Positions 19,410 through 36,234 of a stretch of 64,000 bases of DNA are shown piece after piece. The stretch covers positions 62,001-126,000 of the forward strand of contig NZ_JABXYX010000001.1 in assembly GCF_017982655.1 (NCBI RefSeq), in the 5' to 3' direction. Each line of letters opens with the position of its first letter. The stretch's first letter is position 1. A program made the position numbers and the translations under genes. Source of the DNA: Brasilonema sp. CT11 (GTDB lineage Bacteria; Cyanobacteriota; Cyanobacteriia; Cyanobacteriales; Nostocaceae). Below the pieces are notes generated by a model. That model was not told where the DNA came from. It saw nothing but the letters and a program-made list of their open reading frames with translations, and did not search any database.

Positions 19410-22175
19410 TCATTTAGGGGGAGTGAGATTACACCTTTGGGCAATCTCATCCCGCAGCAAAGACACTTTATCTTGGGTTAGCCAGGTAAATAACTTGGCC
19501 ATAGCAATAGAAGACCGATCCATTTTGAGAGCTTCCTCAAGGATCTGCCAGGCCCCAGCTACATTCCCAGCTTGCAGCGGAATTATTGTGGATTGCAGGC
19601 AATAGTTAAAGTAATGGCTACGGGATTTTGCCGTAATCTCCGCACACAAATCAGATGGCAGATAACTTTCCGAGATTTTGATCGCACGGCGGATGGATAT
19701 AATCTGAGTCCCAGATAATAAAAGATCGCTAGTTATACTGTTAGAATGCTCACGGAAACGCGCCAAAATACCAGGCTCACACCACCAATCATAACAAGCG
19801 GCAATGCGTTTATAAAGTTCCCAGTCAGAAGTGAAGCTCAACTCAGGAAGATAGCCTCCTAGGCGTTCATGAGCTAATCGACGAATCACAACTGCCGACA
19901 TATTTAATGGATTAGCCACTCCAATTTTCCACAGCCAATCTTGAGTTACGCCTTTATATTCTCCACACACTTGCTGGAAGCAAATCACAATTTCATTCTC
20001 ATTAATATTTTCATAACCTGTAAAAGCTGCTCCAATAGACTCTGAACACCCTTCTAGACTCTGCTTTAACTGGGAATAAAAACCAGGGAGGACATAGTCA
20101 TCGTCGGGAATAACATGAATCCACTGACCGCGACCCAGAGCAATACCTGCGTTCATATTTTTGATGGGGCCAATATTCTCTGGATTGCGGTAGTAGCGGA
20201 CGATCCCTTTGCCGATACTATTTACCATTTCAAACACAGGTGTCTGACTAGCATTATCCATAACCAGAATTTCCATCTCCTGTTTTCCTGGCCATTGTGC
20301 TAATACGCTAGTCAGACATTGAAACAGATAGTCAGTGCGGTTATATACTGGAATAACCACACTCCAAAAAGGTCGCGGTTTCTCACCGTCAGAAACGGGT
20401 GGAATCGCTGGAAACTGATAAGCTCCGACAGTGACCTCTGTTTGGGGAATTGATGGTGTTACTGAAGTTTCCTGAGTCGTTTCAGTATCCTGGTAAGCTT
20501 CTATAGCTTGGGCGTAGTGGGGATTAATCAGCTTTAACCATTGTCGGTAAGCTGCTGCTGCCTGCTGTAACTGGTTTTCCTGTTGGTAAATCTTGCCTAA
20601 GTTTTGGTAAACTTCCGGGTAGTTGGGATTGAGTTCCAGAACTTTTTGATAGCAAGCTCTAGCCTCTTCTAACTCCCCAAGTTCATGCAGCACAACGCCC
20701 AAATTGTTATGGGCTTCAACCAAATTGGGTTGTAGGATGATCGCCTGCTTGTAATAAGCAACAGCAGTTTTTAAATCGCCTGCTTTTTTCCGAGCAACAC
20801 CCAATTTGTGATTTAATTGTGCATAGTGGAGTTGTTTTTCGCTTGAGAGCTTGCCTTGGGCGTGAAGTGCATTGCCTAAATTCGCCTCTGCTTCTGTAAA
20901 GTCCGGCTTTAATTCTAGGGCTTTTTGATAGTAGTTAATTGCTTCCTCAAACAGTCCTTGTTGTTGCAGAGCATAGCCCAAGTTGTTGTAAATTGGTAGT
21001 AAATCTGGCCGTAAGGCAAGAGCTTGATGGTAAGCGATCGCTGCATCTGGAAATTGCTCTTGAGCTAAACGCAAATTCCCTAAACTGAACCAACTCTTGA
21101 CAGAATCTGGTTGCACACCAACAGCAGCACTCAGAAACTGTTCCGCCGACTGGAGGTGACCGCTTTGCTGCGCTAGCATACCTAACCCGTATAATGCCTC
21201 GGGGTGGTTGGGCTGTTCTGCCAGCACCTGACGGTAACTTTCCTCAGCCTGGGTTAGGCGATTGGCTTGATGATGCTGAACAGCAAGTTGCAGGATTGCA
21301 GAAATTCTGGTCAGAGCAACTTCTGCAACCCTCTGCAATCGGTTCAATCTGAGTGCATACAAGCTTTTTTCTCTGAGTTCCCGACTGCGTTTTTGCATCT
21401 CATTCAGGTCGTCGCTGACCTGGATGTATTGCCCAGACAACTCGTCATACCTACCAGATGCCAATCGCAGAACAAGCTCCACCGCTAACTCCGGTGGTAC
21501 ATCTAGACCTTTTTCAAATATTTTACTAGACCAGGGAATCCACTTCTGTCCTTCCGCAGAGAACGCCACGTCTATCATTGCCGTCCGAACCGCCCCAGGG
21601 CAGATAGCAAACACACTCACCCCATACTGTTTTGTCTCAAGAGCCAAATTTTCACTAAACCGGATTAAGGCGGTTTTGCTGACCACATAGGGTGAGAGAT
21701 AAGCGCAACCTACTAACGCAGCTTCACTTGCGATATTAATGATCCTCCCTCGTCTTTGGGCGATCATGTTCGGCAAGACATATCTTGTGCACAGCAATGG
21801 CCCGTGTAAATTCACTTCCATATTTCGCCACCACTCTTGAGGATCAATCTCCCAGACTGGTCCTAGTGGGGACAAAACGCCTGCATTATTGATCAGCAAA
21901 TCAACAGGTCCGAGTTGCTCTTCGATTTGGCTTACAACCTGCTCTACTGCTGCTTGATCAGTCACATCCACCGTCAGTGCGATCGCTCTGCCACCAGCTT
22001 TTGTAATATATGATACGGTCTCCTCAAGCTGATCCGCAGAACGCGCGATCACAGCCACTGACGCCCCAGCAGCAGCCAGAGCAATGGCATATGCTTGCCC
22101 CAAACCTCGACCACCGCCAGTGATGATCGCCACCTGATTTGTCAAGTCAACAAGTCCTGCTGGATTAATCTTCAT
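19410..22175 (-). CDS. SDR - TPR - family 2 glycosyltransferase fusion protein
   Basis: 921 residues with three parts. Residues 1-260 are a short-chain dehydrogenase/reductase: TGGGRGLG (19-26), NNAG (96-99), catalytic S150 and Y163-x-x-x-K167. Residues about 290-560 are seven or eight TPR units. Residues 600-830 are a GT-A glycosyltransferase of family 2: VVIPVYNRTDYL (606-617) and the acidic DDDY (691-694). The SDR core looks fully catalytic. The TPR block is nearly the same as the C-terminal TPR block of the next upstream gene, so the two genes share a duplicated module. AGGAG lies 7 bases before the ATG. It could transfer a sugar to a protein held by the TPRs, with the SDR acting on the sugar or on a separate ligand; this is inference. 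No close named homolog comes to mind. Confidence 0.88.
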   Translation of the reverse strand: MKINPAGLVDLTNQVAIITGGGRGLGQAYAIALAAAGASVAVIARSADQLEETVSYITKAGGRAIALTVDVTDQAAVEQVVSQIEEQLGPVDLLINNAGVLSPLGPVWEIDPQEWWRNMEVNLHGPLLCTRYVLPNMIAQRRGRIINIASEAALVGCAYLSPYVVSKTALIRFSENLALETKQYGVSVFAICPGAVRTAMIDVAFSAEGQKWIPWSSKIFEKGLDVPPELAVELVLRLASGRYDELSGQYIQVSDDLNEMQKRSRELREKSLYALRLNRLQRVAEVALTRISAILQLAVQHHQANRLTQAEESYRQVLAEQPNHPEALYGLGMLAQQSGHLQSAEQFLSAAVGVQPDSVKSWFSLGNLRLAQEQFPDAAIAYHQALALRPDLLPIYNNLGYALQQQGLFEEAINYYQKALELKPDFTEAEANLGNALHAQGKLSSEKQLHYAQLNHKLGVARKKAGDLKTAVAYYKQAIILQPNLVEAHNNLGVVLHELGELEEARACYQKVLELNPNYPEVYQNLGKIYQQENQLQQAAAAYRQWLKLINPHYAQAIEAYQDTETTQETSVTPSIPQTEVTVGAYQFPAIPPVSDGEKPRPFWSVVIPVYNRTDYLFQCLTSVLAQWPGKQEMEILVMDNASQTPVFEMVNSIGKGIVRYYRNPENIGPIKNMNAGIALGRGQWIHVIPDDDYVLPGFYSQLKQSLEGCSESIGAAFTGYENINENEIVICFQQVCGEYKGVTQDWLWKIGVANPLNMSAVVIRRLAHERLGGYLPELSFTSDWELYKRIAACYDWWCEPGILARFREHSNSITSDLLLSGTQIISIRRAIKISESYLPSDLCAEITAKSRSHYFNYCLQSTIIPLQAGNVAGAWQILEEALKMDRSSIAMAKLFTWLTQDKVSLLRDEIAQRCNLTPPK

Positions 22176-22217
22176 ATAAATCTCCTATTGATATGAAGGT
22201 TGAAATCTGGGAGGCTG

Positions 22218-25200
22218 TTAAGAAGTAGAAATGGCGTCTTTGAGTTGGTTCTGCTGTTGGGAAATCTTGTCTAAGTTTTGATAAACTTCCGGGTAGTTAG
22301 GATTAAGTTCTCGAACTTTTTGATAGCAAGCTCTAGCCTCTTCTATCTCCCCAAGTTCATGCAACACAACCGCCAAATTGTAATGAGCTTCAACCAAATC
22401 GGGTTGTAGGGTGAGAGCTTGCTTGTAATAAGCAACAGCAGTCTTGAAATCCCCGGTTTTTTTCCGGACAATACCCAATTTGTGATTTAATTGTGCATAG
22501 TAGAGCTGTTTTTCGGTTGAGAGCTTGCCTTGGGCGTGAAGTGTATTCCCTAAATTCGCCTCTGCTTCTGTAAAGTCCCGTTTTAATTCTAAGGCTTTTT
22601 GGTAGCAGTTAATTGCTTGATCAAATAATTTTTGTTGTTGCAGAGCATAGCCCAAGTTATTATAAATTGGTAGTGAGTCTGGGCGTAAGGCGAGAGCTTG
22701 ATGGTAGGCGATCGCTGCCTCGGCAAACTGCCCGTGACCTAAACGCAAATTACCTAAACTAAACCACGTCTTGACAGAATCAGGCTGAGCTTGGGAAGCA
22801 GCACTCAGCCACTGTTCGGCGCTTTGAGGCTGCCCCAACTGAATAGCCAGCATACCCAAACTGTATAAAGCTTCTGGGTGGTTAGGTTGCTTTTCCAGAA
22901 CTTGATGATATAGCTTTTGTGCGTCGTCTAAGCGATTGGCTCGATGGTGTTGAACTGCGAGTTGAAGCGTTTGAGCCACTTCTTGCGCGCTAAATCGTCT
23001 TGGTTTATTGACCACCTTGAGGAGAAAATCCTCCAGTGCTCTAACTGGTTTTAAGTCGCCATATAACTTGTGCTTATTTTCAGCAACTTGCTTTTTAATG
23101 TATTGACGATATTCAGCATCTTGCCCCAGACGGATTGCAATCTTTACATAATCTTCTTTAGTTGCAGCAATGGTTTCTTCTATGCCCATCATTTTCAGAA
23201 TGGCCATTGTATGGCGTCCCCGCATCAAATCTCCTGGTAATGTCACGACGGGAATATTATGGGCGATCGCTTCCAGGGTAGTATTACCTCCAGACCAACC
23301 GATGCTATCCAAGAAGACATCTGCTATGGCTGCTGTTCCCGCAAACACCTCGGAATCTAAGCGAGGCAAAAAGATACAATGGTCTTGATAATTTAGCCCA
23401 CAGTCATTAAAAGCATCATCTAACCGTTGGCGAAAGACTTCAGTAATATATTTGCCTTGTGGTGCTTCAAGAAAGACAAACTTACACTTAGGTAACTCTT
23501 TAGCAATTCGAGGAAAGACATCATCATGCTGTGGTAAATACTTATACAATGATTGACAGCACCAGAACATGATTTCATCATCGGCGATACCGATATCCTG
23601 TTTACTGATTGCTTGAGGTTGAATTTCTAAAGGGGTGTAATGGATAGATAAATTGGGCAATCTGACTAACTGCTCAGTGTAATGGTTTTGAGCATTTTCG
23701 GGTTCCATTAAATCACTGCTCAAGTAATAGTCAATTGTCGGTAGCCCACTGGTTTCAGGGTGAATCCAAGATCCTATTTGAATGGGAGCTAGTCTTAAGC
23801 AACCCAACTTCACTGTCATCGGATCCATCCCGAATTCCGGAAAAATCAAAATATGTAACTTGTCTTTTTGAATGGTTTCACACCATTGTTCAAGCAGGAG
23901 TGATCCACTCGTAAATTTGTCAAACACTTTCGCCGCTGTTTGAGTATGGTGATCTCGTCTTTGATCAGTGTGATACCCAAATAATTCAAACTCACTCCTA
24001 TCTAGGTTTTCTACCCAACCCCGAACTAACTTCCAACAGGAATGATTGCGAAAAAATCCGGTCAAAAATCCAACGCGAACTTTTTCGTTAGGTTGTAATT
24101 TTGGAACAGAGATAAGCTGGCTCCATTGGGGATAGCAATCCGACATCAGCCCAGCAATCATTTCTCCGTATTTTTGCTGTAAAGGACGGTCATTTAAGCC
24201 TTGATAACCCAGATAAAAAGGCTGCACGTAACCGACAGCTTCAGCCGCCTCTGTTCTTTCTTTGGGAGTAGCTACTTGATAGTGGTCAGCTAAATTTTGG
24301 AGACTTTGCTGATAATTATTTCGCCTCAATTCAATGTCGTCAAAATTTGAATAAATAATCGGTAGCTGAGCCATACAAATCCCAAATTTTGCTACAGCAA
24401 ACTCAGGTTGGATGTTTAAGGCTTGCTGGTAGTGCTCTACTGCTCTTTCTAACTTACCCTCCTCAAGGAATACCGTTCCCAAGTTGTAATAAAAGGAGGC
24501 ATCGTTAGGGTCGATTTGTAAAGCTTGCTGGTAGGACTCGATCGCTGCTTCTAACTTACCTTGTTCCTTAAGGATATTTCCTAAGTCGTTCAGTGCAACA
24601 GAGGCTATTAGGGAATTTGGGTAGAGATTTAAAACTTTTTGGTAAGCTTCGGTCGCCTCACTTAATTTATTTTGCGCTTGCAATACTTGTGCTAAGTATA
24701 TTTGAGCGAGAACATAAGTGGACTTAATTTTTAAGATCTGCTTGTAGAGAGATTCCGCTTCAGAAAAATTTTTACACTGATGTTTATCAATAGCTCGGTT
24801 GATGAGATATTGAACATCTGATTCGGAATCATTATCCCGATTAAATTGATAGACTCTGGATTCTTTTCCAACTACATTTAAAAGAAAATTTTCCAGTGCT
24901 CTAACTGGTTTTAAGTCACGATATAACTTATATTTTTGCTCAGCAACTTGCTTCTTAATGTATTGACGATATTCAGGATATTGCCCGAGACGAACTGCAA
25001 TTTTCACATAATCTTCTTTAGTTGCAGCAATGGTTTCTTCTATACCCATCATTTTGAGTATTGCTAGGGTATGTCGTCCCCGCATCAAATCTCCTGGTAA
25101 TGTCACGACGGGAATATTATGGGCGATCGCGTCCATAGTCGAATTACATCCCGACCAACCAATGCTATCTAGGAAGACATCGGCGATAGCTGTCATTCCG

Positions 25201-26816
25201 GCAAACCTGCTGCTATCCATATGAGGCAAAAAGATGCAGTAGTCTTGATAATTGAGTCCGAATTCCTCAAAAGCACGGCTTAACCGCTGCTGAAAGGCTT
25301 CGGTCACACATTCGCCTCTGTTATTTTGAATAAATACAAACTTGCAACTACCTAAATCTTTGGCAATTCGAGGAAAGACATCATCATGTTGCGGTAAATA
25401 CTTGAATAATGCTTGACAGCACCAGAACATTAATTCGTCATTTTTGATGCCTATTTCTTTTTTGTTTATGACTTGAGGTTGAATTGCTAACGGCGTGTAA
25501 TGAATCGATAGATTGGGCAACCTAACTAACTTTTCTGTATAGTGTTCTTGAGCATTTTCTGGTTCCATTAACTCACTGCTCAAGTAGTAGTCTATCGTTG
25601 GTAACCCACTTGTATCCGGGTGTCCCCAAGATGTGATTTGAATGGGAGCTAGTCTTAAGCAACCCAACTTCACTGTCAGCGGATCCATCCCAAATTCTGG
25701 AAAAATTAGGATGTGTAACTTGTCTTTTTGAATTGTTTCACACCATTGTTCTAACAACAATGGTTTTTGAGTAAATTTGTCAAAAACTTTCGCTGCTATT
25801 AGAGTCTGGTGATCTTGTTTGAGACCAGTATGATATCCAAATAATTCAAACTCACTTCTATCCAGGTTTTCTACCCAACCCTTAATCGGGATTTTCCAAT
25901 TAGAATGATTGTAAAAAAATCTGGAAACAAAACCGATGCGAATTTTTTCGTTCGGTTGCAAATCTGGTAGAGGAATGGCTTGGCTGTATTGGGGATAGCG
26001 ATTCGACATCAGCCCAGCAATCATTTCCCCATATATTTGCTGTAAAGGACGATTATTTAAACCTTGATAAGCCAGATAAAAAGGCTGTACAAAACCGACC
26101 GCTTTAGCCCCCTCTATCCTTTCTTCAGGAGTAGCGGCTTGATAATCGTAAGCTAGATTTTGGAGACATTGCTGATAATTATTTCGCCTCAACTGAATGT
26201 CGTCAACATTGGAATAAATAATTGGTAGCTGAACCGTACAAATGCCAAATTTTGCTTGAGCATAGTTGGGTTTAAGGCTTAATACTTGCTGATAAGATTT
26301 CAACGCTCTTTCTAACTCGCCTTGTTGCAGCAAGACATTTCCTAAATTGTAATGAGCATCAGCATAGTCAGGTTTAATGTTTAATGCTTGTTGGTAGGAC
26401 TTTAATGCTGCGTCTAGGTTGCCCTGTTGTAGGAAGACACTTCCCAAATTATTATGAGCCTCAGCATAGTCAGGTTTAATGTTTAATGCTTGCTGGTAAG
26501 ACTTCAATGCTGCGTCTAACTTACGCTGTTGCAGGAAGACATTTCCTAAATTGTAATGAACATCAGCATAGTCAGGTTTGAGTCTTAATGCTTCTTGATA
26601 GGACTTTAACGCTGCGTCTAACTTGCCCTGCTGCTCAAATAAACTTCCTAAATTGCAACTTGCGATCGCGTAATATTGGTTTTCTAATTGGGGTTGAAAT
26701 TGTAATATTTGTTTATATAGCGATTCAGCTTCATCCAATTGACCTGACTGATGCTTCTGTGTCGCGATTACGATCAAAGACTTAATGTTAGATTCTAAAA
26801 TATTTTCAGTATTCAT
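22218..26816 (-). CDS. Tandem TPR - OGT (SPINDLY/GT41-type) glycosyltransferase
   Basis: 1532 residues: TPR block 1-195, GT41-like domain about 200-650, TPR 670-805, second GT41-like domain about 810-1270, TPR 1280-1530. Each catalytic half has the OGT landmarks: IGFVSRFFYNHS / VGFLTGFFRNHS with the conserved His (H304, H924); APIQITSWGHPDTSGLPTID / APIQIGSWIHPETSGLPTID; and GWSGCNSTMDAI / GWSGGNTTLEAI followed by TLPGDLMRGRHT. In other bacteria OGT-like enzymes glycosylate Ser/Thr of proteins in the cytoplasm. The two halves are close paralogs, an internal duplication of about 600 residues. It is 42 bases upstream of the SDR-TPR-GT2 gene, so the two are probably co-transcribed and may act on the same target. 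Ser/Thr-rich exported peptides are encoded just upstream. Confidence 0.9.
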   Translation of the reverse strand: MNTENILESNIKSLIVIATQKHQSGQLDEAESLYKQILQFQPQLENQYYAIASCNLGSLFEQQGKLDAALKSYQEALRLKPDYADVHYNLGNVFLQQRKLDAALKSYQQALNIKPDYAEAHNNLGSVFLQQGNLDAALKSYQQALNIKPDYADAHYNLGNVLLQQGELERALKSYQQVLSLKPNYAQAKFGICTVQLPIIYSNVDDIQLRRNNYQQCLQNLAYDYQAATPEERIEGAKAVGFVQPFYLAYQGLNNRPLQQIYGEMIAGLMSNRYPQYSQAIPLPDLQPNEKIRIGFVSRFFYNHSNWKIPIKGWVENLDRSEFELFGYHTGLKQDHQTLIAAKVFDKFTQKPLLLEQWCETIQKDKLHILIFPEFGMDPLTVKLGCLRLAPIQITSWGHPDTSGLPTIDYYLSSELMEPENAQEHYTEKLVRLPNLSIHYTPLAIQPQVINKKEIGIKNDELMFWCCQALFKYLPQHDDVFPRIAKDLGSCKFVFIQNNRGECVTEAFQQRLSRAFEEFGLNYQDYCIFLPHMDSSRFAGMTAIADVFLDSIGWSGCNSTMDAIAHNIPVVTLPGDLMRGRHTLAILKMMGIEETIAATKEDYVKIAVRLGQYPEYRQYIKKQVAEQKYKLYRDLKPVRALENFLLNVVGKESRVYQFNRDNDSESDVQYLINRAIDKHQCKNFSEAESLYKQILKIKSTYVLAQIYLAQVLQAQNKLSEATEAYQKVLNLYPNSLIASVALNDLGNILKEQGKLEAAIESYQQALQIDPNDASFYYNLGTVFLEEGKLERAVEHYQQALNIQPEFAVAKFGICMAQLPIIYSNFDDIELRRNNYQQSLQNLADHYQVATPKERTEAAEAVGYVQPFYLGYQGLNDRPLQQKYGEMIAGLMSDCYPQWSQLISVPKLQPNEKVRVGFLTGFFRNHSCWKLVRGWVENLDRSEFELFGYHTDQRRDHHTQTAAKVFDKFTSGSLLLEQWCETIQKDKLHILIFPEFGMDPMTVKLGCLRLAPIQIGSWIHPETSGLPTIDYYLSSDLMEPENAQNHYTEQLVRLPNLSIHYTPLEIQPQAISKQDIGIADDEIMFWCCQSLYKYLPQHDDVFPRIAKELPKCKFVFLEAPQGKYITEVFRQRLDDAFNDCGLNYQDHCIFLPRLDSEVFAGTAAIADVFLDSIGWSGGNTTLEAIAHNIPVVTLPGDLMRGRHTMAILKMMGIEETIAATKEDYVKIAIRLGQDAEYRQYIKKQVAENKHKLYGDLKPVRALEDFLLKVVNKPRRFSAQEVAQTLQLAVQHHRANRLDDAQKLYHQVLEKQPNHPEALYSLGMLAIQLGQPQSAEQWLSAASQAQPDSVKTWFSLGNLRLGHGQFAEAAIAYHQALALRPDSLPIYNNLGYALQQQKLFDQAINCYQKALELKRDFTEAEANLGNTLHAQGKLSTEKQLYYAQLNHKLGIVRKKTGDFKTAVAYYKQALTLQPDLVEAHYNLAVVLHELGEIEEARACYQKVRELNPNYPEVYQNLDKISQQQNQLKDAISTS

Positions 26817-27113: not shown

Positions 27114-28367
27114 CTACAAACCCCAAGTAAAGACTATTGATTGAGAGTTAATCTGACTGGAATTTACACCCGCAAGCAGTAATTTTCCTTCAGTCCATCC
27201 ACGCTCAAAATCGAAGAGAAGACCATCCTTGGTATCGGTTATGTTACCTTGAGAAAACATATTTTTTAACCATTTCTCAGGACTCAGAAGAGTCCAGTTT
27301 TGGAATACTAGCTTATCGGTACCAACCTGGAAGTCTTTGATGATGTCGTAGTCACTACTTGAATTATCGCCACCTTTAAAAACAAATTGATCAGAGCCGT
27401 CGCCACCAACCAACACATCACTACCACGACCACCAATCAGGATGTCATCGCCGGAACCACCACTGAGTTTATCATTACCCTCATCCCCATATAGCCGGTC
27501 ATTGCCTGGACCTCCTTCGAGGATATCATCACCTTTGTTTCCATCCAGCGAATCATTTCCTAGGCTGCCATATATTTTACTAGCACCATTGCCGCCACTC
27601 AGTTTATCGTCTCCTATCGTGCCATATGTGACATCTTTTCCCAGATTGCCGATTAAAGTATCCCCTAAAAAGGTAACGGCAGTGGCCTGAACTTCCACTA
27701 TAGTTATGTTGGTATCCTGCTTAAACGTCTGCTGGTAAGTTCCACCATACTTGCCTGTGACGGAGTCTTGCCCATTGTTGCCATTAACATCACGAGTTTG
27801 ATTGGGAGTGGCAATGTTGACATTCTTACTACCGCCAAACTTCAGTTCGCCAACTTTTTTAGAGGAAATTAAGTTACCAGTGATGCCAAAATAATCTAAG
27901 ACCTTGGGTTTACTGGGATCTTTGGTGTCTAACACCACGAAAGCAGTTTTCGATTTAGCCTCGTTATATTCAGCATTAGGATTTTCAATTTCTTTAGCTG
28001 TCAGTGCGACATCTGCTGAAAAATCGAAACGGAAAGCAAGATTCGCCTTAACTGCAAAATTTGCAACGACTTTAGTTTGACTGTTGGAACTTCCTGCATA
28101 CGGACCATCTAAACCAATCCCAGTACTGTCATTGAAGAGTACAGAGAAAGTTGGGTCATTGTTGAAAATAGCTTTAGCGTCACCAATAGCAGTAGCTACC
28201 CCACCGCGAACCAATGTGTCCGCTTGGGAGGCAGTCAAAAAAGATGCTGAAGGTTGACTATAGTTGAACAGAGCAAGAAGCCCTGTAGCGTTAGCAAAAT
28301 TAGGGTTGGGATTAGGAGTTGTATTGATTGGTTGTAAAAATACAGTTTCTGATGCCATGAACTTCAA
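27114..28367 (-). CDS. Secreted RTX (haemolysin-type calcium-binding repeat) protein
   Basis: 417 residues. The N-terminal 240 residues are a beta-rich domain I do not recognise (LQPINTTPNPNPNF..., NPTFSVLFNDSTGIG). From about 245 to 335 there are GGxGxDxLx nonapeptides (NDSLDGNKGDD, GGPGNDRLYG, GGSGDDILIG, GGRGSDVLVGG, GGDGSDQFVF) that bind calcium outside the cell. The C-terminal 75 residues have the character of a type I secretion signal region. The start is uncertain: GGAG is 5 bases from a TTG at 28367 but 14 from the ATG at 28358. Secretion probably uses a type I system; the ABC/HlyD pair at 31-36 kb is the nearest candidate, though that ABC has a C39 domain better suited to GG-leader peptides. 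Confidence 0.88.
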   Translation of the reverse strand: MKFMASETVFLQPINTTPNPNPNFANATGLLALFNYSQPSASFLTASQADTLVRGGVATAIGDAKAIFNNDPTFSVLFNDSTGIGLDGPYAGSSNSQTKVVANFAVKANLAFRFDFSADVALTAKEIENPNAEYNEAKSKTAFVVLDTKDPSKPKVLDYFGITGNLISSKKVGELKFGGSKNVNIATPNQTRDVNGNNGQDSVTGKYGGTYQQTFKQDTNITIVEVQATAVTFLGDTLIGNLGKDVTYGTIGDDKLSGGNGASKIYGSLGNDSLDGNKGDDILEGGPGNDRLYGDEGNDKLSGGSGDDILIGGRGSDVLVGGDGSDQFVFKGGDNSSSDYDIIKDFQVGTDKLVFQNWTLLSPEKWLKNMFSQGNITDTKDGLLFDFERGWTEGKLLLAGVNSSQINSQSIVFTWGL

Positions 28368-28646: not shown

Positions 28647-28847
28647 TTAATTACCACAAGAAATAGAACTATAGCCAGATTGTGAAGAACTGCTGGAATT
28701 CTTATCAGATGAAACTTTGACTGAAACGCTTTGACTTATCTGAGTTTGACCATCACCAGATGCTTTAACAAAATGTTTTACTTCGGCAACAACTTTACCA
28801 TCTGGTGAGACTATCCGTTTAACGACAACTTGCTCATGTTGTTCCAT
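28647..28847 (-). CDS. Small Ser-rich protein with Cys-containing C-terminus
   Basis: 66 residues: a charged front (VVVKRIVSPDGKVVAEVKHF) and a Ser/Gln-rich back ending SSSSSQSGYSSISCGN. There is no signal peptide and no double glycine. Similar small proteins with an 'I.SPDGKV.AE' front occur, as I recall, near peptide-export loci in Nostocales, but no function is known to me. A decayed second copy lies beside the graspetide precursor (18664-18860), which supports this being a real gene family. It shares the strand with the GG-leader peptides upstream. The ribosome site is weak. Confidence 0.6.
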   Translation of the reverse strand: MEQHEQVVVKRIVSPDGKVVAEVKHFVKASGDGQTQISQSVSVKVSSDKNSSSSSQSGYSSISCGN

Positions 28848-28996
28848 AATTATACCAACCGTTTGTAGTTTCTTAGACTTCTTGCAAATGTGCTTTTAGT
28901 TAGCGATACGCCCAGGCGCATCTGCGCTCTCTTGCTATCGCCTCTGATAACTCACCTTTTACGTCTTAAGTTGTGATAGTGTCAATCAGAAGTATG

Positions 28997-29302
28997 TTAT
29001 GTTGACGAAAGATTTATTATGAAAGAGGCAACAGTTTTCGCCTGAGGATTGTTTGTAACTAACGTAACAGAACGAGATTTAGATTTGCCATCATCTGTTG
29101 AGACTTCATATCCGACAACTCCAGGTTTACTGATTTTTTTCACAACAGAATTGTTATCAGAACTTACCTCTGTTACTTCGTAACCTTGCAATTGTGGAAA
29201 GAAATTTAACAAATCAGCGAATTTCAATCCACCTGTGATCTGAATATCTTCCTCAGTTACGACTTCACTAAAGTCCAAGTCAGAAATTTGTAAATTACCC
29301 AT
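28997..29302 (-). CDS. Double-glycine leader peptide 3
   Basis: 101 residues from the ATG at 29302 (GGAG 10 bases upstream; the frame could also start at 29311). The leader LQISDLDFSEVVTEEDIQ-ITGG ends in a double glycine about 25 residues in. The mature part (KFADLLNFFPQLQGYEV..., SKPGVVGYEVSTDDGK) is mixed polar, with no Cys. Its leader resembles those of the two peptides upstream (I-x-DL...V.E...GG), so all three look like substrates of one C39 exporter. The function of the mature peptide is unknown. Confidence 0.72.
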   Translation of the reverse strand: MGNLQISDLDFSEVVTEEDIQITGGLKFADLLNFFPQLQGYEVTEVSSDNNSVVKKISKPGVVGYEVSTDDGKSKSRSVTLVTNNPQAKTVASFIINLSST

Positions 29303-29367
29303 CTTACACATTCTCCAAATCGTTGTAACTTAGATACTTTTGGTAGGTTCGATAATGACAACTTGAA

Positions 29368-29640
29368 TTAAGTTGAAACAGAAGAAAGAGAAAAAACGCT
29401 AGTAGCAGAGCTACTTGCAGAACTACCGCCAGAAACTGCAGTAGCTTGAACATAACTGCTAGCCGAAGGACTACCAGTGCCAGCAACTGCTTGATTTACA
29501 GCAACAGTACCAGTGTAGGTTGAATGACCAAAGGCACGTGCCAAATATGCAGTAATTGCTGAAGCGTTCCCACCACCATGTAAATGCATGGTATTTTCTT
29601 CAGAAACAGAGTCTAAATAATCGAGATCCAAGATCAACAT
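29368..29640 (-). CDS. Double-glycine leader peptide 2, Ser/Thr/Ala-rich
   Basis: 90 residues. The leader MLILDLDYLDSVSEENTMH-LHGGG reaches its double glycine at about residue 22. The mature part is strikingly rich in Ser, Thr, Ala and Gly (ITAYLARAFGHSTYTGTV, then SGGSSASSSATS) with no Cys, so it is neither a lanthipeptide nor a disulfide bacteriocin. Many hydroxyl side chains and an OGT-type glycosyltransferase 3 kb downstream make O-glycosylation a testable idea. The ribosome site is weak. A second frame of 60 codons over the same DNA is a shadow. Confidence 0.75.
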   Translation of the reverse strand: MLILDLDYLDSVSEENTMHLHGGGNASAITAYLARAFGHSTYTGTVAVNQAVAGTGSPSASSYVQATAVSGGSSASSSATSVFSLSSVST

Positions 29641-29822: not shown

Positions 29823-30140
29823 CTATAACCTAGCACCAGCTGTTAAGGTACCAGCAGACTCAGAACCTACACCCGCAATCACAGTATTGGTGACATTAGA
29901 TTCAGTATATGAGTTGTTACCTGAAGCAGTGTTGTCATAAACGTTGATAGATGAGTTACCTGTAGCGGTTACAGTGCTAGTCAGGGAAGAGGTGATGCTC
30001 TTGTTAGCCAACAGAGCAATATTAACGTTAAAATTTTGTGTCGAACCTGTGGTCAGGTTAACGTTTTTGGTGAGGGTTAAACCACCAACAACTTCAGCAC
30101 CTTCAACGGTTTCCAAAAGATTCAAATCAGAGATAATCAT
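29823..30140 (-). CDS. Double-glycine leader peptide 1, Ser/Thr/Asn-rich
   Basis: 105 residues. A strong AGGAGG lies 7 bases before the ATG. The leader MIISDLNLLETVEGAEVVGG ends in a double glycine at residues 19-20, a textbook C39 site. The mature part alternates Ser/Thr/Asn with hydrophobics (STQNFNVNIALL, TSTVTATGNSSINVYD), has no Cys, Trp or Pro, and is likely beta-forming. It is the first of the three peptide genes behind the exporter and chaperone genes. Whether it is a toxin, signal or matrix peptide cannot be read from the sequence. Confidence 0.78.
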   Translation of the reverse strand: MIISDLNLLETVEGAEVVGGLTLTKNVNLTTGSTQNFNVNIALLANKSITSSLTSTVTATGNSSINVYDNTASGNNSYTESNVTNTVIAGVGSESAGTLTAGARL

Positions 30141-30608
30141 GGGGTTCCTCCTGGGAAGTTATGTTTCGTATTTTTGTTCTGGGAATTTGTGTAAGCGTTT
30201 TTTTGCTTACATTTATCAATATACAACATTCAATTTATAAGTCAACTATTTTTATGTGTAAAATTTATTTTTTTTACTTATCAATTGAAACAAAAATATA
30301 AACTTTAACTATAAAAAAATGACTATATTTTTTATAGTTAAAAATAAAAAAGCAGCCAATACAAAGCTAGTCGTATCGACTTTATTTTTTTTATAAAGTT
30401 AATTTTCCACTCAAATTTCAACTAAGTAATTTTAAGTTTTTCCCATTTTGTAATGTTTTTAATCGCTCATGCTCTTGTTTCTTATGCTCAGAAAAGACTT
30501 TTAGCTCTTTTTTAGAAAAAAGAAACTCCTATATCCTGCTGCATAAAAGTAGGATAAGTCGCTACCAAATTGGTTAGAAAGTTAGATTTTTTTTACTGAA
30601 GAAGGAAA
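30141..30608. other. AT-rich spacer between the PpiC-like gene and the peptide genes
   Basis: No gene supported. It holds the 13-base perfect inverted repeat at 30306-30340. A promoter for the peptide genes is expected here, given the long gap and strong ribosome site downstream, but no clear -10/-35 pair stands out in such AT-rich DNA. Confidence 0.5.
30306..30340 (-). terminator. Possible terminator hairpin after the PpiC-like gene
   Basis: TAACTATAAAAAA (30306-30318) pairs perfectly with TTTTTTATAGTTA (30328-30340). All but one pair is A-T, so the stem is weak; its position between two transcription units is the main support. Confidence 0.35.
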
Positions 30609-31391
30609 TCAAGCTTGCTTAGGCAGTTCTGTTGATGCTTGAAAACCTACATCTAAATTAAAATCAGTAACGATTTCCATCGATGTAATTTGTTCCTTCA
30701 ACCAATGATCAAACAATTCCTGCTGAATTTGGTCGCGCAACTGCTCATCCAAGATAGGTTGAACAATTTCCTCTACCCAAATCAAATAAACTCCCTTGGA
30801 GGTTGAAATCGGCTTGAGAGGGGACGGTGGAGTAGCAGCAAACACAGCCGCTGCAATCTCTGGTCGAAAATCTTTACGACGTCGTATTCCTTTATATCCT
30901 CCAGCACGTCGAAGTTCAGGCTGTTGAATATATTCACGAGCTATTTCTTGGAAAATGATTTCGTTTGATTGCAGAGAATAAAACAGTTCTAGAGCTAAGT
31001 CTGTGTCATCCAAGATGACTTCATAGGTGGCAGCACCAACATAATTGAGTTGGTTTTCATAAAAGAAGCGTTCTACATGCGTAGCAAACAGGTGATGAGC
31101 TAACTTAGTGGCTAGTACCTTGTTATGGATCAATTGTTCAAACTCAGGCAGAGAGAGATGATGTTTTTTGAGCCAGTTCCAAGTGTCTTGAGCTTTGACT
31201 AGTTTTTTCGCAAAGCGTAATCTATCTCCTTCCTGTTGAACTTCTTGTTCCAAGACTTGAATACCTGCTTCTTGGGCCGCCGATGCAATAATTTTTTGGG
31301 TTGCGATCGCTTCCACAACATCAGGGATTTGACAAGAAAGTTTCAGACTCTGAATCAGGTCTGAGGACGAAATGGTCAAAGGTTCTGACAC
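30609..31391 (-). CDS. PpiC/SurA-like peptidyl-prolyl isomerase
   Basis: 260 residues from the GTG at 31391, which has AGGAG 9 bases upstream; the longer frame from a TTG at 31427 has none. The N-terminal half is helical (SurA_N-like). About 125-215 matches a parvulin domain (FQEIAREYIQQPELRRAGGYKG..., then LKPISTSKGVYLIWVEEI). Such cytoplasmic or envelope isomerases are often encoded next to HlyD/ABC exporters in Nostocales, where they may hold the substrate before export. There is no signal peptide. It is 140 bases downstream of the HlyD gene, with a run of short tandem repeats in between. Key parvulin catalytic residues are not clearly conserved, so it may be a chaperone only. Confidence 0.83.
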   Translation of the reverse strand: MSEPLTISSSDLIQSLKLSCQIPDVVEAIATQKIIASAAQEAGIQVLEQEVQQEGDRLRFAKKLVKAQDTWNWLKKHHLSLPEFEQLIHNKVLATKLAHHLFATHVERFFYENQLNYVGAATYEVILDDTDLALELFYSLQSNEIIFQEIAREYIQQPELRRAGGYKGIRRRKDFRPEIAAAVFAATPPSPLKPISTSKGVYLIWVEEIVQPILDEQLRDQIQQELFDHWLKEQITSMEIVTDFNLDVGFQASTELPKQA

Positions 31392-31435
31392 GAGACGATT
31401 CTCCTGGGAATTTAAAACAGTTACCAAGTACCCGC

Positions 31436-31528
31436 AGTATCAGTGATCAGTTATCAGTGATCAGTCATCAGCCATCAATTGCTTGATCATTGTTCACTGT
31501 TGACTGTTGACTGTTGAAGTTGACTTTT
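31436..31528. repeat. Short tandem repeats (ATCAGTG and TGTTGAC units)
   Basis: Two adjoining blocks: ATCAGT(G/T)-type units at 31439-31477 and GTTGACT-type units at 31491-31527. They lie upstream of the PpiC-like start and resemble the short tandemly repeated sequences of heterocystous cyanobacteria. Confidence 0.65.
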
Positions 31529-31530
31529 GA

Positions 31531-33090
31531 CTAAACGTTTAAACCACCTTTGTGCAATTTCTTAAATGGATCTAGGATGAAGTCCATGATACGCCGCTGG
31601 CGGATAACCACCTCAGCCGTTGCAGTCTGTCCAGGAATGAATTGAATACGTTTGTTGCCATTCTGGATATGCTGTTTATCCAAAGTAATTTCTAACTCAA
31701 AGTTTTCTACATTCCCTTGAGGCGTTTGGGTAACTTTGGAGTCTGGAGAAATCCAATTAACTTTTCCTGACACAATCCCATACTCCTGGAAAGGATAAGC
31801 ATCAAACTTGACTTTGGCAGGCATACCCGCTTTTAAGAAGCCACTGTGCTGGTTTGGTATCACAGCCTTGAGGACTACACCAACTTGTAATGGTGCAATT
31901 TGAGCAACTCTTTGACCTGGTTGTAGTACGGCTCCCGGTTTGGTAGTGGGAAATTCAAAAATCACACCATCAATAGGCGATCGCACCACTCGTTGCTGTA
32001 ACTGAATATTTGAGGCTGTTAATTGACTTTGAGTTTGGGAAATGTCTGATTGAATAGAATCAATTTGTGCTTGTAGTTCTTTGAGTTGTTCGTCTGCTTT
32101 GAGTTGTGCAAGTTCACCTGTATGAACCAGGCTTTGATAATTGCGTTGTTCTTCCTCCGCTTTGAGTTGTGCTTGCTGGATTTCAGACTGAGCTTGCTGA
32201 ATGGTTCTTTGATAACTGCTTTGTTGCTCTTTTAAGCTCGACTGAGTCTGAGCAATATCAGATTTCGCTCGCAGAAGGTATTCGTAGTTTTCCTTTGCGG
32301 ACTGTTGGATTTCCTCAAAACGCTCTTGTGGCATGACACCATCTTGATAGGCTTTTTTATAGCGTGGGACTTTTTCTTGAGACGCCTGAAGACGAACTTC
32401 TGCTAACTTATAAGCTGACTTACTAGAATCAAGAGCTTGCTGCACTTGGGCTACTTTCGCCAGTTTTTCCTCTTTCTGTAAGTTATAAACGGATTTGAGA
32501 GCATCTAAATTCCGTTGCGCCTGATCCACTTGAGACTGCTTTGCTAAGAGTTGAGCTTGGTTTTGTTGTTGCTGAGTACGCACAGAAAGCGTTAATTGAT
32601 TTTTGAGTAGCTCTGAGCTCTTTAGCCGATTGTGCAGTCCGTCGAGCTTCGTTTGAACCTGGTTAAGTTCAGTTTTGACAACCTGTGAGTCCAGTTCCAA
32701 TAAAACTTGACCTGCTTTTACTGTTTCGCCTTCTTTGACCTTAACAGCAGTTACACTTCCACCCACTGGACTATCTAATTTTTGGGTTGCACCTTTGGGT
32801 TCAAGACGTCCTCTAGCACTCTCTGTCTCATCAACCTTTGAGAACATCGCCCAAGGTAAGACAATCAGTGCAAAAGCTGTCAACAAGTACAGCGAAGAAC
32901 GCGTCCAAACTTTAGGTAAAGCATCTAACAGTTCTTCGGTTCCGGAAAACCAATTTTGTGTATCATCTGTTGTTTGTGTCTGCTTAACTGACTCAGTAGA
33001 TTCAGCACTTTTTGCGGAAGGAATGTAGTTTTTCTGCGGATCTGACTGGGGCGGAACTCCAGATGAGGGATTAGGAGAGGTGTTTGGCAT
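31531..33090 (-). CDS. HlyD-family periplasmic adaptor of a type I / peptide exporter
   Basis: 519 residues. One transmembrane helix at about 66-84 (SLYLLTAFALIVLPWAMF), a first half-lipoyl motif (KLDSPVGGSVTAVKVKEGETVKAGQVLLELD), a long coiled coil of Gln/Lys-rich heptads at about 130-365, the second half-lipoyl segment (VVRSPIDGVIFEFPTTKPGAVLQPGQ) and a beta-barrel end. It links the inner-membrane ABC protein to an outer-membrane channel, which is not encoded nearby. It starts 63 bases downstream of the C39 ABC gene on the same strand, so the two work together. The coiled coil is intact, in contrast with the short paralog at 39567-40379. Confidence 0.93.
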   Translation of the reverse strand: MPNTSPNPSSGVPPQSDPQKNYIPSAKSAESTESVKQTQTTDDTQNWFSGTEELLDALPKVWTRSSLYLLTAFALIVLPWAMFSKVDETESARGRLEPKGATQKLDSPVGGSVTAVKVKEGETVKAGQVLLELDSQVVKTELNQVQTKLDGLHNRLKSSELLKNQLTLSVRTQQQQNQAQLLAKQSQVDQAQRNLDALKSVYNLQKEEKLAKVAQVQQALDSSKSAYKLAEVRLQASQEKVPRYKKAYQDGVMPQERFEEIQQSAKENYEYLLRAKSDIAQTQSSLKEQQSSYQRTIQQAQSEIQQAQLKAEEEQRNYQSLVHTGELAQLKADEQLKELQAQIDSIQSDISQTQSQLTASNIQLQQRVVRSPIDGVIFEFPTTKPGAVLQPGQRVAQIAPLQVGVVLKAVIPNQHSGFLKAGMPAKVKFDAYPFQEYGIVSGKVNWISPDSKVTQTPQGNVENFELEITLDKQHIQNGNKRIQFIPGQTATAEVVIRQRRIMDFILDPFKKLHKGGLNV

Positions 33091-33153
33091 AGTTTTGGTT
33101 GGAGGTTCGCGAAATCAATGATCATTTAGGTGATCACTGCTAACTGTAGAAAC

Positions 33154-36100
33154 TTAACCTACATGAGCAAGTTGTTGTTGATTCAGGTAGTAATAATGTC
33201 CTTTTTTAACGATTAATTCGTCGTGTGTCCCGCTTTCGATCAAGATACCTCGGTCTAACACCAGAATTAAATCAGCGTTGCGGACAGTGGAAAGGCGATG
33301 AGCAATAATCAGACTCGTGCGTCCTTGAAGAATAGTTTTTAGGTTGTTCTGAATGATTCGTTCGGATTCTGCATCCAGGCTACTGGTGGCTTCATCGAAA
33401 ATTAAAAATCGGGGATTACCTAGCAAGGCGCGGGCGATCGCCAGACGTTGGCGTTGTCCGCCAGAAAGCATTCCACCACCTTCACCAATTTCGGTGTCGT
33501 AACCCATTGCCAGCTGCTGAATAAATTCATCTGCTCCAGCCAAACGTGCTGCTTCTATAATTTCTTCTAAAGAGGCTTCTGGATGGGCGATACCAATGTT
33601 TTCTCGAATTGTACCACCAAACAAGAAAGTATCTTGGTCTACCACACCCATTTGCTGTCGCAACGATTTAAGAGTAATACTACTGACATCGTGACCATCG
33701 ACTAAGACCTTGCCTTCGCTTGCAGGATATAGACCCAACATTAACTTTGACAAGGTTGTCTTTCCTGAACCACTGCGTCCCACCACGGCAACTGTTTGTT
33801 CCGGCTTAATTTCAAAGCTGAGATTTTCCAGGACGTTCGTCTGGCTTTCTGAGTGATAGCGGAAAGTGACATTATCAAAGCGAATGTGACCGCGCATCTG
33901 ACGCAAAGGCTTGCGGGGTTTAGTTTGCAAGTCTTCTTCTGGTTCTGCATCCAGGACATCGTTGATGCGTTCCACAGAAATCACAATTTCTTGGAATTGA
34001 TTCCACACCACGCTAAGTCGCTTGAAAGGGCTAAGGACATTGCCCAATAACATATTAAAAGCAATCAGTTGTCCAATGGTGAGTTCTTGATGAATCACTA
34101 GCGATGCCCCGTACCATAGCAATGCCGTATGCATCACAGTGTCGATGGCAGCACTAATAATTTGCAGGTTATTGCCAATAATCTGTGCGCTAAAGGATTT
34201 TTTGACCAAGGTATTCAGCAATTCTTCCCAACGCCAGCGCACTGTGTGTTCAATTGCCATTGAACGCACAGAACGAATACCCGTGAGGGCTTGAATCAGG
34301 TAACTGCTTTGTTCAGCGCCTGCATTGAAAATCTCTCTGGACATCCGACGCAAGATGTTTGTGGAAGCTAGTGTCAGGATAAAAAATGGCGGTACAGTCA
34401 TTAACCCTAGAAGTGCCATCCGCCAGTTATACCAAAACATCAATCCTGCATAAATAACCACCGTCAATAAATCCAGAATGATTGACAGCGTTTCGCCAGT
34501 CAAGAAGTGTTGAATTTTTTGGTTTTCCTGGATGCGAGAGACAATATCTCCGACGTAGCGAGACTCGAAGAACGATAAAGGTAAGCGTAGGGTGTGTTTG
34601 ATAAAACCTACCAACAGTGCAATGCTGACACGGTTTGCTGTATGCGCTAAAAGATATTGCCTTAAGCCATTCACAGCGATGCTGAACAAACCAAATATGA
34701 TCAACCCAATACAGACAGCGTTTAATGTAGAGGTGCTACCCTGAACAATGACTCTATCAAAAAGCAGTTGGGTAAATAAGGGCGTGATTAGCCCAAACGC
34801 CTGAATCAGTATTGAAGCAAAGAAAACTTCCAGTAGTACCGAAGTGTGGGGTTTAAGTAGCTCAAAAAACCTCCAGATGCCTGTGCTGTCATCTTCTGTT
34901 TCTTTTAGTACAGATGTGGGTTGCAGCAATAAGGCATATCCAGTCCAACCTGCCTGAAATTCCTTTGGGCTGAGAATGCGTTGACCAATCCCAGGGTCAC
35001 CCACAATCACTCGCTTTGAGGTAATTTCATAGAGGACGATGTAGTGTTTGCCTTCCCAATGGACAATCGCTGGTAGGGATTGTTGTGCTAGTTTATCAAA
35101 GCTGGCTTTGACGGGACGGGTTGCAAAGCCAACATTTTCGGCGGTGGCGGCTAAAGCACTGAGTGATGCACCAGACTTGTTGACGTTGGCTGACTCCCGC
35201 AGTCGATTCAGATTTAAGCGCTTACCCCAATAGCGTGCTATCATTACCAGGCACGCTGCACCACAGTCGGCAGCACTTTGCTGTGCAAAAAATGGGTAGC
35301 TTTTGGTTAGTTGTCCCCACGCTTGCCCGACTTTGACTTTGGGAGTTGGAAAGTAAGGGCGTGATTTTTTTGGTGGCTCTTGTCTTGTTGTAACTGACTC
35401 CCGGTGGCGAAAAGGGATGATGTTTCCAGAAGGAATAATTTGTTCTGGTTTTGATTTGCGAGGACGTGACTTCTGTTCTTGAGGTGGGGGCGAACCTTGT
35501 TCTGGTTCTACCAACTGTGCTAATTGCTGCCAATGTTCACTGACTGTTTGCCATTGTGTTTCTTTGAGATCGTAGGCGATCGTTGGCTCAGTTGTTTGCC
35601 AATCTCCCTGATCTGAGTGTGTAATAATTTGTCCTGGTGTCAAACTTTGACCATTTGTATGTCGCAGTTCTCCTTTGTACACCAGCCACAATTTACTATC
35701 TTTGGGTAGCGATATTTTTTGATTGCTATCTAAGGAGTGTTGAGAGAAATAAGATAAACCTTTTAGTATTTCTGGTACATCTGGTGGCGGGCACTCAATT
35801 TGCGAATTTTGCCGACATCGCAGTAGTAAGTCCCATAATTGAGCGCGTTGCAGTAGGCGATCGCCAAAGTTGGGATTATTATCTATCAAAGCTTTTAATA
35901 TCTCTGATTTGAGATAGCAAAGCTTGAGGTTCGTTGAAGCTTTGGCAATATATGGTAAAAAGTCTTGTTCTGGAAACAAGGTGGCTTCTCCAAAGCAAGA
36001 ACCTGTACCTAGGGTTGTGATTAAGTTCTCTGTGCTATCTAATAGTCTGACTTTGCCACGAAGAACTATATAAATTCCGGCAATACTGTCTGTTGTTTGC

Positions 36101-36234
36101 CAAAACTGCTTTGTGGGTGCTGGTTCCAGGATTTCTGCCTGTGCAAGACACCCTGCTAGTTCCTGTTGTGAAACAACCTGGTCAAAAGCACCAGCAAGTT
36201 GTTGACACAGTTGCTGCAAAAATTCTGATGACAT
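33154..36234 (-). CDS. HetC-like ABC exporter with cNMP-binding and C39 peptidase domains
   Basis: 1026 residues. Order: cyclic-nucleotide-binding-like domain 20-130, linker 150-300, C39 peptidase 310-440 with C324 (AADCGAACLVMI), H397 and D413, six-helix transmembrane domain 460-750, ATPase 785-1020 with Walker A GRSGSGKTT (819-827), signature LSGGQRQR (924-931) and Walker B FLIFDEATSSLD. All catalytic residues are present. Such proteins cut leaders after a double glycine and export the peptide, so the GG peptides at 29-30 kb and the graspetide precursor are natural candidates. Size and layout match HetC and its paralogs of Nostoc/Anabaena; a hetP-family gene lies 2.8 kb upstream. GGAGG precedes the ATG by 10 bases. 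Confidence 0.93.
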   Translation of the reverse strand: MSSEFLQQLCQQLAGAFDQVVSQQELAGCLAQAEILEPAPTKQFWQTTDSIAGIYIVLRGKVRLLDSTENLITTLGTGSCFGEATLFPEQDFLPYIAKASTNLKLCYLKSEILKALIDNNPNFGDRLLQRAQLWDLLLRCRQNSQIECPPPDVPEILKGLSYFSQHSLDSNQKISLPKDSKLWLVYKGELRHTNGQSLTPGQIITHSDQGDWQTTEPTIAYDLKETQWQTVSEHWQQLAQLVEPEQGSPPPQEQKSRPRKSKPEQIIPSGNIIPFRHRESVTTRQEPPKKSRPYFPTPKVKVGQAWGQLTKSYPFFAQQSAADCGAACLVMIARYWGKRLNLNRLRESANVNKSGASLSALAATAENVGFATRPVKASFDKLAQQSLPAIVHWEGKHYIVLYEITSKRVIVGDPGIGQRILSPKEFQAGWTGYALLLQPTSVLKETEDDSTGIWRFFELLKPHTSVLLEVFFASILIQAFGLITPLFTQLLFDRVIVQGSTSTLNAVCIGLIIFGLFSIAVNGLRQYLLAHTANRVSIALLVGFIKHTLRLPLSFFESRYVGDIVSRIQENQKIQHFLTGETLSIILDLLTVVIYAGLMFWYNWRMALLGLMTVPPFFILTLASTNILRRMSREIFNAGAEQSSYLIQALTGIRSVRSMAIEHTVRWRWEELLNTLVKKSFSAQIIGNNLQIISAAIDTVMHTALLWYGASLVIHQELTIGQLIAFNMLLGNVLSPFKRLSVVWNQFQEIVISVERINDVLDAEPEEDLQTKPRKPLRQMRGHIRFDNVTFRYHSESQTNVLENLSFEIKPEQTVAVVGRSGSGKTTLSKLMLGLYPASEGKVLVDGHDVSSITLKSLRQQMGVVDQDTFLFGGTIRENIGIAHPEASLEEIIEAARLAGADEFIQQLAMGYDTEIGEGGGMLSGGQRQRLAIARALLGNPRFLIFDEATSSLDAESERIIQNNLKTILQGRTSLIIAHRLSTVRNADLILVLDRGILIESGTHDELIVKKGHYYYLNQQQLAHVG

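Follow-up and report, generated by a model that had tools for sequence, protein, structure and literature searches.

A stretch of 64,000 nucleotides from the 8.8-Mb draft genome of Brasilonema sp. CT11 (contig NZ_JABXYX010000001.1, positions 62,001 to 126,000; hereafter the window) carries, on the minus strand between positions 19410 and 36234, a peptide exporter together with small peptides bearing double-glycine (GG) leaders and two large glycosyltransferases. This arrangement raises the question whether these enzymes glycosylate an exported peptide and, if so, which peptide and which of its residues. In reading order the cluster encodes a C39 ABC exporter, an HlyD adaptor, a PpiC-like protein, the peptides pepC, pepB and pepA, a small protein termed p66, an RTX protein, a double glycosyltransferase of family GT41 and a fusion of SDR, tetratricopeptide repeat (TPR) and GT2 domains. 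All genes named in a first-pass annotation of this DNA were recovered, on one strand and with matching positions. With a probability of roughly 60% the cluster appears to be a peptide-glycosylation and export system, in which the GT41 enzyme would act on an Asn of pepC, the GT2 enzyme would extend the sugar, the C39 domain would cleave the leader and the ABC-HlyD channel would export the product. The gene content, the linkage, the association between peptide and enzyme and the co-variation of the Asn, on which this reading builds, were computed directly.

The position of the GT41/GT2 module beside the exporter is not due to chance. A search with the GT41 protein against 145 genomes of the window's family (discovery set) yielded, besides the window itself, 25 places at 59–94% identity as well as a more remote set at about 36–43%, the second group; surroundings of up to 20 kb were taken for all 25 places of the close group and for 15 of the second. 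A fresh search of 388 genomes of the order, using an alignment of GT41 catalytic domains (A2), again gave scores falling into two groups. Loci flanked on each side by 5 kb or more were regarded as evaluable, which applied to 22 of 25 discovery, 14 of 34 fresh, 14 of 15 second-group and 13 of 22 non-cyanobacterial loci. A member of the export set lay within 10 kb of GT41 in 21 of the 22 evaluable discovery loci (exporter 19, HlyD 20, PpiC 20, pepC 21), of which counts that for pepC is circular, its model having been built from these loci, while those for exporter and HlyD are not. For the fresh loci, where draft contigs limit the test, the figure was 11 of 14 (exporter 9, HlyD 9, PpiC 8, pepC 5). 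If the evaluability filter is lifted, an export-set member is present in 23 of the 25 discovery loci and 19 of the 34 fresh ones; for L118 it consists of no more than a weak pepC match in a long open reading frame (ORF). None of the 14 evaluable loci of the second cyanobacterial GT41 group had an export-set member within 10 kb, and GT41 relatives from Proteobacteria and Acidobacteria (45–52% identity) were linked in one of 13 evaluable loci, through an ABC-domain match only. In the window's own genome, with its 14 C39 matches, GT41 and pepC each occur once and lie next to each other. The gene set is more than a chance neighbourhood, as it recurs in other genomes, and the co-occurrence of glycosyltransferase and peptide genes, on which that annotation had staked its proposal, exists: the GT41 subfamily is tied both to the exporter and to the pepC family.

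The gene pepC (29823..30140, minus strand) encodes a peptide of 105 residues with the leader MIISDLNLLETVEGAEVVGG, and this peptide is the proposed substrate of glycosylation. In nearly all intact discovery loci the peptide encoded between PpiC and GT41 belonged to this one family, whose alignment (A1, 22 rows) exhibits the conserved leader MII-D-L-LE...GG. The family is more widespread than GT41, as it occurs in 75 of the 145 family genomes. Within this sample pepC was found in all 25 genomes with a close GT41 and in 50 of 120 others (p 7.6e-9), a comparison which is partly circular, since A1 derives from those loci. At the level of the order, where no more than 12 candidates per genome were scored with E-values up to 1e-10, pepC was present in 25 of 37 genomes with a close GT41 compared to 35 of 351 without (p 2e-14). 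Of the 30 GT41 genomes not belonging to the discovery set, 18 had pepC. GT41-negative pepC loci, meaning those whose retrieved stretch is free of a close GT41, comprised 20 discovery and 24 fresh stretches, chosen mostly among the better-scoring matches; 19 of the 20 contained the same exporter core (the exception being L094) and one (L085) a GT41 remnant. As pepC also exists without GT41, the sugar would be optional for the exported peptide, perhaps altering its solubility, adhesion or recognition. One locus (L062, 14055-15653) contains four tandem pepC genes upstream of GT41 with identical products of 102 residues. A structure prediction for the peptide (mean predicted local distance difference test score 59, predicted template modelling score 0.27) was set aside; it hints only at the site described below preceding a beta-hairpin.

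Since NGT-type GT41 enzymes use N-x-S/T acceptors, the number of such sequons was compared between pepC cores with and without GT41. It was higher beside GT41 in both sets, with 2.46 versus 1.00 sequons per core in the discovery set (p 0.0024) and 1.81 versus 0.55 in the fresh set (p 7.7e-5). The difference has a defined place in the alignment: behind a near-invariant Gly, peptides from GT41-positive loci mostly carry N-x-[S/T], whereas those from GT41-negative loci mostly have K, D, P, Y, S or other residues instead of the Asn. In the window this conserved site corresponds to the G-N-N-S of pepC codons 74-77 (29910..29921, minus strand), in which the Asn is the residue that co-varies with GT41. 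The aligned motif G-N-x-[S/T] was present in 16 of 24 discovery pepC peptides beside GT41 and in 2 of 28 without (p 7e-6); for the fresh loci, which constitute the fair test as the site was first spotted in the discovery alignment, the corresponding values were 9 of 14 and 2 of 33 (p 6e-5). The Ser/Thr at +3 is kept in both classes (GT41-positive versus GT41-negative: 21 of 24 versus 27 of 28 discovery, 11 of 14 versus 27 of 33 fresh).

These counts depend on a few decisions about inclusion. Identical peptides and those of at least 130 residues were removed, which reduced the fresh GT41-positive peptides from 16 to 14. From the discovery peptides the truncated L046_14466 and the atypical L057_12944 were taken out by hand, and the pepC of L054, which does not have the site (seen as L206), was missed by the search pattern; with L054 and L057 counted as negatives the discovery value becomes 16 of 26 (p 2.8e-5). 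Two fresh loci were assigned to the GT41-positive class by hand, namely L137, whose contig has GT41 at a distance of about 10 kb, and L138, where it is cut by the contig end; their omission gives 7 of 12 (p 4.9e-4). Some genomes behind GT41-negative loci hold a GT41 elsewhere, namely those of L089, L094 and L097 in the discovery set (for L097 within the same contig, at a distance of about 14 kb) and those of L139 and L161 in the fresh set. The association persisted when the peptides were clustered at thresholds of 50-90% identity, with p from 0.0095 to 3.6e-7. Among 16 tree-independent pairs of GT41-positive and GT41-negative peptides, 8–9 were for and none against it at the median (at most one against; p 0.004-0.008, worst 0.039), also with a tree built without the columns of the site. 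In a third GT41-positive set, consisting of named genomes judged by eye and excluding one duplicate and one fragment, the site was found in 7 of 14 peptides, or in 6 of 12 without the two from discovery genomes. Comparable sequon shifts between the two classes were not observed for RTX, pepA, pepB, p66 and PpiC (with few sequences for pepA, pepB and p66), and HlyD differed only among the fresh loci (p 0.023), as one of nine comparisons. All this makes pepC the likely substrate. Two further features of the peptides were dropped: a depletion of Lys and Arg in GT41-positive peptides (discovery p 2.5e-6) did not recur in the fresh set (p 0.30), and the exact motif GNN[ST], chosen post hoc (15 of 24 versus 0 of 28 discovery, 5 of 16 versus 1 of 33 fresh), gave way to the general sequon at the aligned position.

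Some observations qualify this picture. Sequons elsewhere in the pepC core are also more common beside GT41 (p 0.056 discovery, 0.0057 fresh) and a weak enrichment is seen there for the reversed motif [ST]xN as well (p 0.058 and 0.045), so that the total sequon count partly reflects the Asn content of the cores, which itself differs with GT41 (p 9e-4 and 0.017). In addition, the closest solved relatives of the window's GT41 enzyme are, by sequence and by fold, OGT and SPINDLY rather than NGT. The enzyme (22218..26816, minus strand, 1532 residues; Glyco_transf_41, PF13844, 3.5e-54, 184 bits, cut-off 25) combines two GT41 domains with TPR arrays in the order TPR-GT41-TPR-GT41-TPR. In OGT numbering, the positions matching the key residues K842 and D554 are invariant in 29 domains, and those matching H558 and H498 are conserved in at least 90%. 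HMW1C/NGT enzymes possess an all-alpha N-terminal domain and an Arg/Asp dyad (R177 and D215 in AaNGT) reading the Thr at +2. The NCBIfam model NGTferase reached 108 bits with the window enzyme at a cut-off of 1000; the structural alignment begins near NGT residue 177 and the profile match at chain residue 225-232. A comparison of the window enzyme by Foldseek and VIA did not separate OGT from NGT. As the enzyme is closer to OGT/SPINDLY than to NGT, the linkage and the sugar can only be inferred.

It could thus be argued that GT41 is a Ser/Thr enzyme of the OGT/SPINDLY type acting on pepC, with the Asn two residues earlier serving merely as a recognition motif. The kinship to OGT and SPINDLY, the TPR arrays joined to GT41, which are typical of OGT, and the presence of Ser/Thr at the site in 32 of 38 GT41-positive peptides would fit with this. 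However, Ser/Thr is at least as frequent there without GT41 (54 of 61), and the total Ser/Thr content of pepC cores, tried as a signal of its own, does not differ significantly between the classes (p 0.07 discovery, 0.74 fresh); the Asn alone tracks the enzyme. The O-linked alternative is therefore considered unlikely, and the O-GlcNAc/SPINDLY-type modification of Ser/Thr which the first-pass annotation had envisaged finds no backing in the comparison of pepC cores, in which it is the Asn of N-x-S/T that differs.

A second alternative concerns the RTX calcium-binding protein (27114..28367, minus strand, 417 residues; HemolysinCabind 5.1e-27), for which an ATG at 28358 was judged by eye to be a likelier start than the annotated TTG. 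Similar to HMW1C-type enzymes, which act on adhesins, GT41 might glycosylate this secreted protein, and its linkage to GG peptides would then be incidental. Genes for RTX-like proteins indeed lay no more than 10 kb from GT41 in 17 of the 22 evaluable discovery and 3 of the 14 fresh loci, with a gene overlap in L063, and the N-x-S/T sites of RTX proteins exceed those of shuffled sequences. Yet, RTX-like genes are common in GT41-negative loci as well, the sequon density does not differ between the classes (p 0.23 and 0.20), and the excess over shuffled sequences, being present in both, fits the repeat unit itself. RTX as the actual substrate hence appears quite improbable.

The second glycosyltransferase of the cluster is the SDR-TPR-GT2 fusion (19410..22175, minus strand, 921 residues; adh_short, TPR and Glycos_transf_2), which is proposed to extend the glycan. 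A TPR-GT2 enzyme was found in 17 of 24 GT41-positive versus 1 of 20 GT41-negative discovery loci and in 20 of 36 versus 0 of 24 fresh stretches; among the 14 control loci of the second GT41 group, 4 likewise have GT2 nearby. In many loci (e.g., L045, L053, L060, L115, L120 and L128) GT41 and GT2 form a single polypeptide, and this fusion suggests that both act in succession on one substrate. Alternatively, the glycosyltransferases could belong to an envelope-glycan or other pathway and lie beside the exporter by co-regulation, leaving the peptides untouched. In line with that, genes for a sugar methyltransferase, a nucleotidyltransferase and a PIG-L protein occur in 6, 6 and 5 of 24 discovery GT41-positive loci, the window enzyme has an SDR domain fused to TPR-GT2, and a few GT41 loci do not contain an exporter. 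Such tailoring genes were, with 5-6 of 24 discovery loci and none of 36 fresh stretches, rejected as a general part of the system. A separate pathway leaves unexplained why the Asn site of pepC tracks GT41 in two sets and in tree-independent pairs, and it is deemed very unlikely.

The steps of the favoured pathway, glycosylation of pepC followed by its export, can be sketched from the sequences; the glycosylation as such, its linkage, the sugar, the order of the steps and the biological role are deduced in this way. pepC would be made with its leader, and the double TPR-GT41 enzyme would attach a sugar at G-N-x-[S/T] in the cytoplasm, most likely on Asn (N75) and less likely on S77. The TPR-GT2 enzyme would then extend or decorate this sugar, the C39 domain would cut behind the GG and the ABC-HlyD channel would export the glycopeptide, with the PpiC-like protein presumably assisting folding or maturation. 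The product is probably a peptide of the extracellular matrix or a biofilm and not a toxin, which is the weakest step of this proposal.

The exporter (33154..36234, minus strand, 1026 residues) is of the 'long type' known from cyanobacterial bacteriocin clusters and unites cNMP_binding, Peptidase_C39, ABC_membrane and ABC_tran domains (PF00027, PF03412, PF00664 and PF00005, all above cut-off) in one chain. Its C39 domain (residues 313-440), when aligned to solved GG proteases, retains the Cys of their DCGAACL motif as well as the downstream His and Asp, the catalytic residues of such proteases, and it scores better against these proteases (68 bits) than against HlyB (33 bits). For both reasons it should cleave GG leaders. 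The neighbouring HlyD periplasmic adaptor (31531..33090, minus strand, 519 residues) matches TIGR01843 above cut-off (1.8e-69, 234.8 bits), and the PpiC/SurA-like rotamase (30609..31427, minus strand, 272 residues) the Rotamase domain (1.3e-5). The latter also matches TIGR04500, 'putative peptide maturation', at 1e-14, but with 54.5 bits below the cut-off of 180, which indicates weak kinship. Upstream of pepC an AGGAGG precedes the ATG, a promoter-like site lies at 30245-30218 and a terminator-like hairpin follows the gene at 29763-29722, both being consensus matches only; promoter-like sites in the region are at the level of shuffled sequence (41 versus 38.9).

The other small ORFs are pepB (29368..29640, minus strand, 90 residues, Ala/Ser-rich), pepA (28997..29311, minus strand, 104 residues) and the Ser-rich p66 (28647..28847, minus strand, 66 residues), which does not have a GG leader. 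The first-pass annotation had regarded pepC, pepB and pepA as three Cys-free, Ser/Thr/Asn-rich candidate substrates. All three GG-leader peptides are present, and the signal is confined to the pepC family, with few sequences compared for pepA and pepB. The absence of Cys applies to the cores, although with its first ATG as start the pepA ORF would have Cys as the second residue, and the core of pepA is not strongly Ser/Thr-rich. The tail of the window's p66 includes a Cys, and the protein recurs at such exporters both with and without GT41.

The export core by itself is not new. Cyanobacterial bacteriocin clusters of groups I and II comprise a long-type C39 ABC transporter with an N-terminal CAP_ED domain, HlyD, SurA/rotamase and GG precursors (Wang, Fewer, Sivonen 2011; PMC3140520), and the window's core, with HlyD and rotamase (SurA) genes beside the exporter and three double-glycine ORFs, corresponds to these groups. 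The HetP-like precursor motif KIXDLXYLEX10GG described there also resembles the pepC leader (PMC3140520). What the window adds are GT41 and GT2 enzymes which track one peptide family; the string 'glycosyl' does not occur in the main text of PMC3140520. Of the suggestion that the system is undescribed, the part concerning the export core is consequently to be withdrawn, whereas the GT41/GT2 module retains it, as no description of peptide glycosylation by GT41 on pepC was found in the open-licence literature, with subscription journals lying mostly outside the search. A GG-peptide system of cyanobacteria with a reported role is that of EbfG1-4 and PteB in Synechococcus elongatus, where secretion of GG-motif peptides needs a C39 exporter and the peptides are needed for biofilm formation (PMC4997328). 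It shares GG peptides and C39 exporter with the window and sets a precedent for a role of such peptides in biofilms; again, the main text of PMC4997328 does not contain the string 'glycosyl'.

Glycocins such as sublancin and glycocin F are ribosomal GG-leader peptides which a C39 ABC protein cleaves and exports after their glycosylation in the cytoplasm; their SunS-like (GT2) enzymes act on Cys or Ser of disulfide-bearing peptides. They are O- and/or S-glycosylated (PMC12457901). The window likewise combines a GG-leader precursor, a C39 exporter and a glycosyltransferase. However, its pepC is free of Cys, the pepC-linked enzyme belongs to GT41, and its GT2 enzyme is a TPR/SDR fusion; the gene content thus differs from the glycocin definition of a SunS-type GT2 with a disulfide-bearing peptide, SunS itself not having been compared. 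With HMW1C/NGT enzymes (ApNGT, AaNGT), for which glucose transfer to the Asn of N-x-S/T is characteristic, the window enzyme shares the GT-B fold of GT41, the presumed action of a soluble enzyme on a protein to be secreted and the N-x-S/T site, which NGT uses as acceptor, for example in a GNWT peptide (PMC10507012). It differs in having TPRs instead of the all-alpha domain, in being duplicated in one chain and in its greater sequence closeness to OGT; instead of on a large adhesin, it would act on a GG-leader peptide that belongs to a C39 exporter. OGT and SPINDLY, which transfer GlcNAc or fucose onto Ser/Thr, have the same TPR and GT41 architecture, are the nearest solved relatives and share the conserved catalytic positions, but the co-varying residue in the presumed substrate of the window enzyme is Asn and not Ser/Thr, and the enzyme has a genomic tie to a peptide exporter. 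It is conceivable, at somewhat less than even odds, that these loci represent a new class of ribosomally synthesized and post-translationally modified peptides (RiPPs) across the window's order, namely GG-leader peptides N-glycosylated in the cytoplasm at G-N-x-S/T by TPR-GT41 enzymes, often fused to GT2, with subsequent cleavage and export through C39 type I systems. If true, this would to our knowledge be the first TPR-type (OGT-like) GT41 modifying Asn and the first GT41-modified RiPP.

The close GT41 group occurred in 4 of 292 genomes sampled across the phylum, all from the window's order (this sample overlaps the others), and the closest named relative of the window's GT41 enzyme is from Brasilonema angustatum (97% identity over the domain). 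Further relatives by name are L200, a metagenome-assembled genome of Leptolyngbyaceae (68% identity), and L193, which is titled Gracilibacteria. The three evaluable fresh loci without an export-set member (L113, L115 and L117) come from one genus, two of these contigs being named Moorena. In L115 (Moorena), which encodes a GT41-GT2 fusion, two adjoining short ORFs (5360-5566 and 7191-7397) each combine an acidic leader that ends in VGG with a very short core, and are possibly another substrate type. Loci of the second GT41 group (L068-L082) often contain an ORF of about 133 residues (with a TPR match in L068), large unlabelled proteins and, encoded on the other strand, a further GT41 that is less closely related; there is no peptide exporter within 10 kb.

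Other peptide modules also neighbour these exporters. Directly downstream of the window's glycosylation genes lies a separate graspetide module, consisting of a microviridin-type precursor with KYPSD repeats and a GG motif (18312..18674, minus strand; NF033738, 72 bits; PF12559) and the ATP-grasp maturase MvdD (16697..17707, minus strand; TIGR04184, 545 bits, cut-off 475). Similar KYPSD precursors occur near the same exporters in L043, L047 and L060, and L051 has two MvdD-domain genes. From the presence of graspetide precursors beside the same exporters it appears possible that a single exporter may serve several peptide types. Precursors with Nif11-type leaders and YGV/YGI motifs were seen on GT41/exporter loci of other genomes (L046, 5719-7481; L056, 13470-13919; L058, 16397-18793), with TIGR03798 slightly below cut-off for the first two and the third judged by eye only. 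The L046 precursor adjoins a nif11-class radical SAM maturase (TIGR04103, 815 bits), and all three resemble spliceotide systems.

OGT-like enzymes are common in bacteria and their substrates are mostly unknown. For one of them the genome data presented here name a specific enzyme, a specific peptide of 105 residues and a specific residue. If the sugar is Asn-linked, TPR-type GT41 enzymes would be capable of N-glycosylation, a further peptide class would be added to the RiPPs, and small exported glycosylated carriers would become available for glyco-engineering. It would also help to reveal the purpose of some of the many GG peptides of cyanobacteria.

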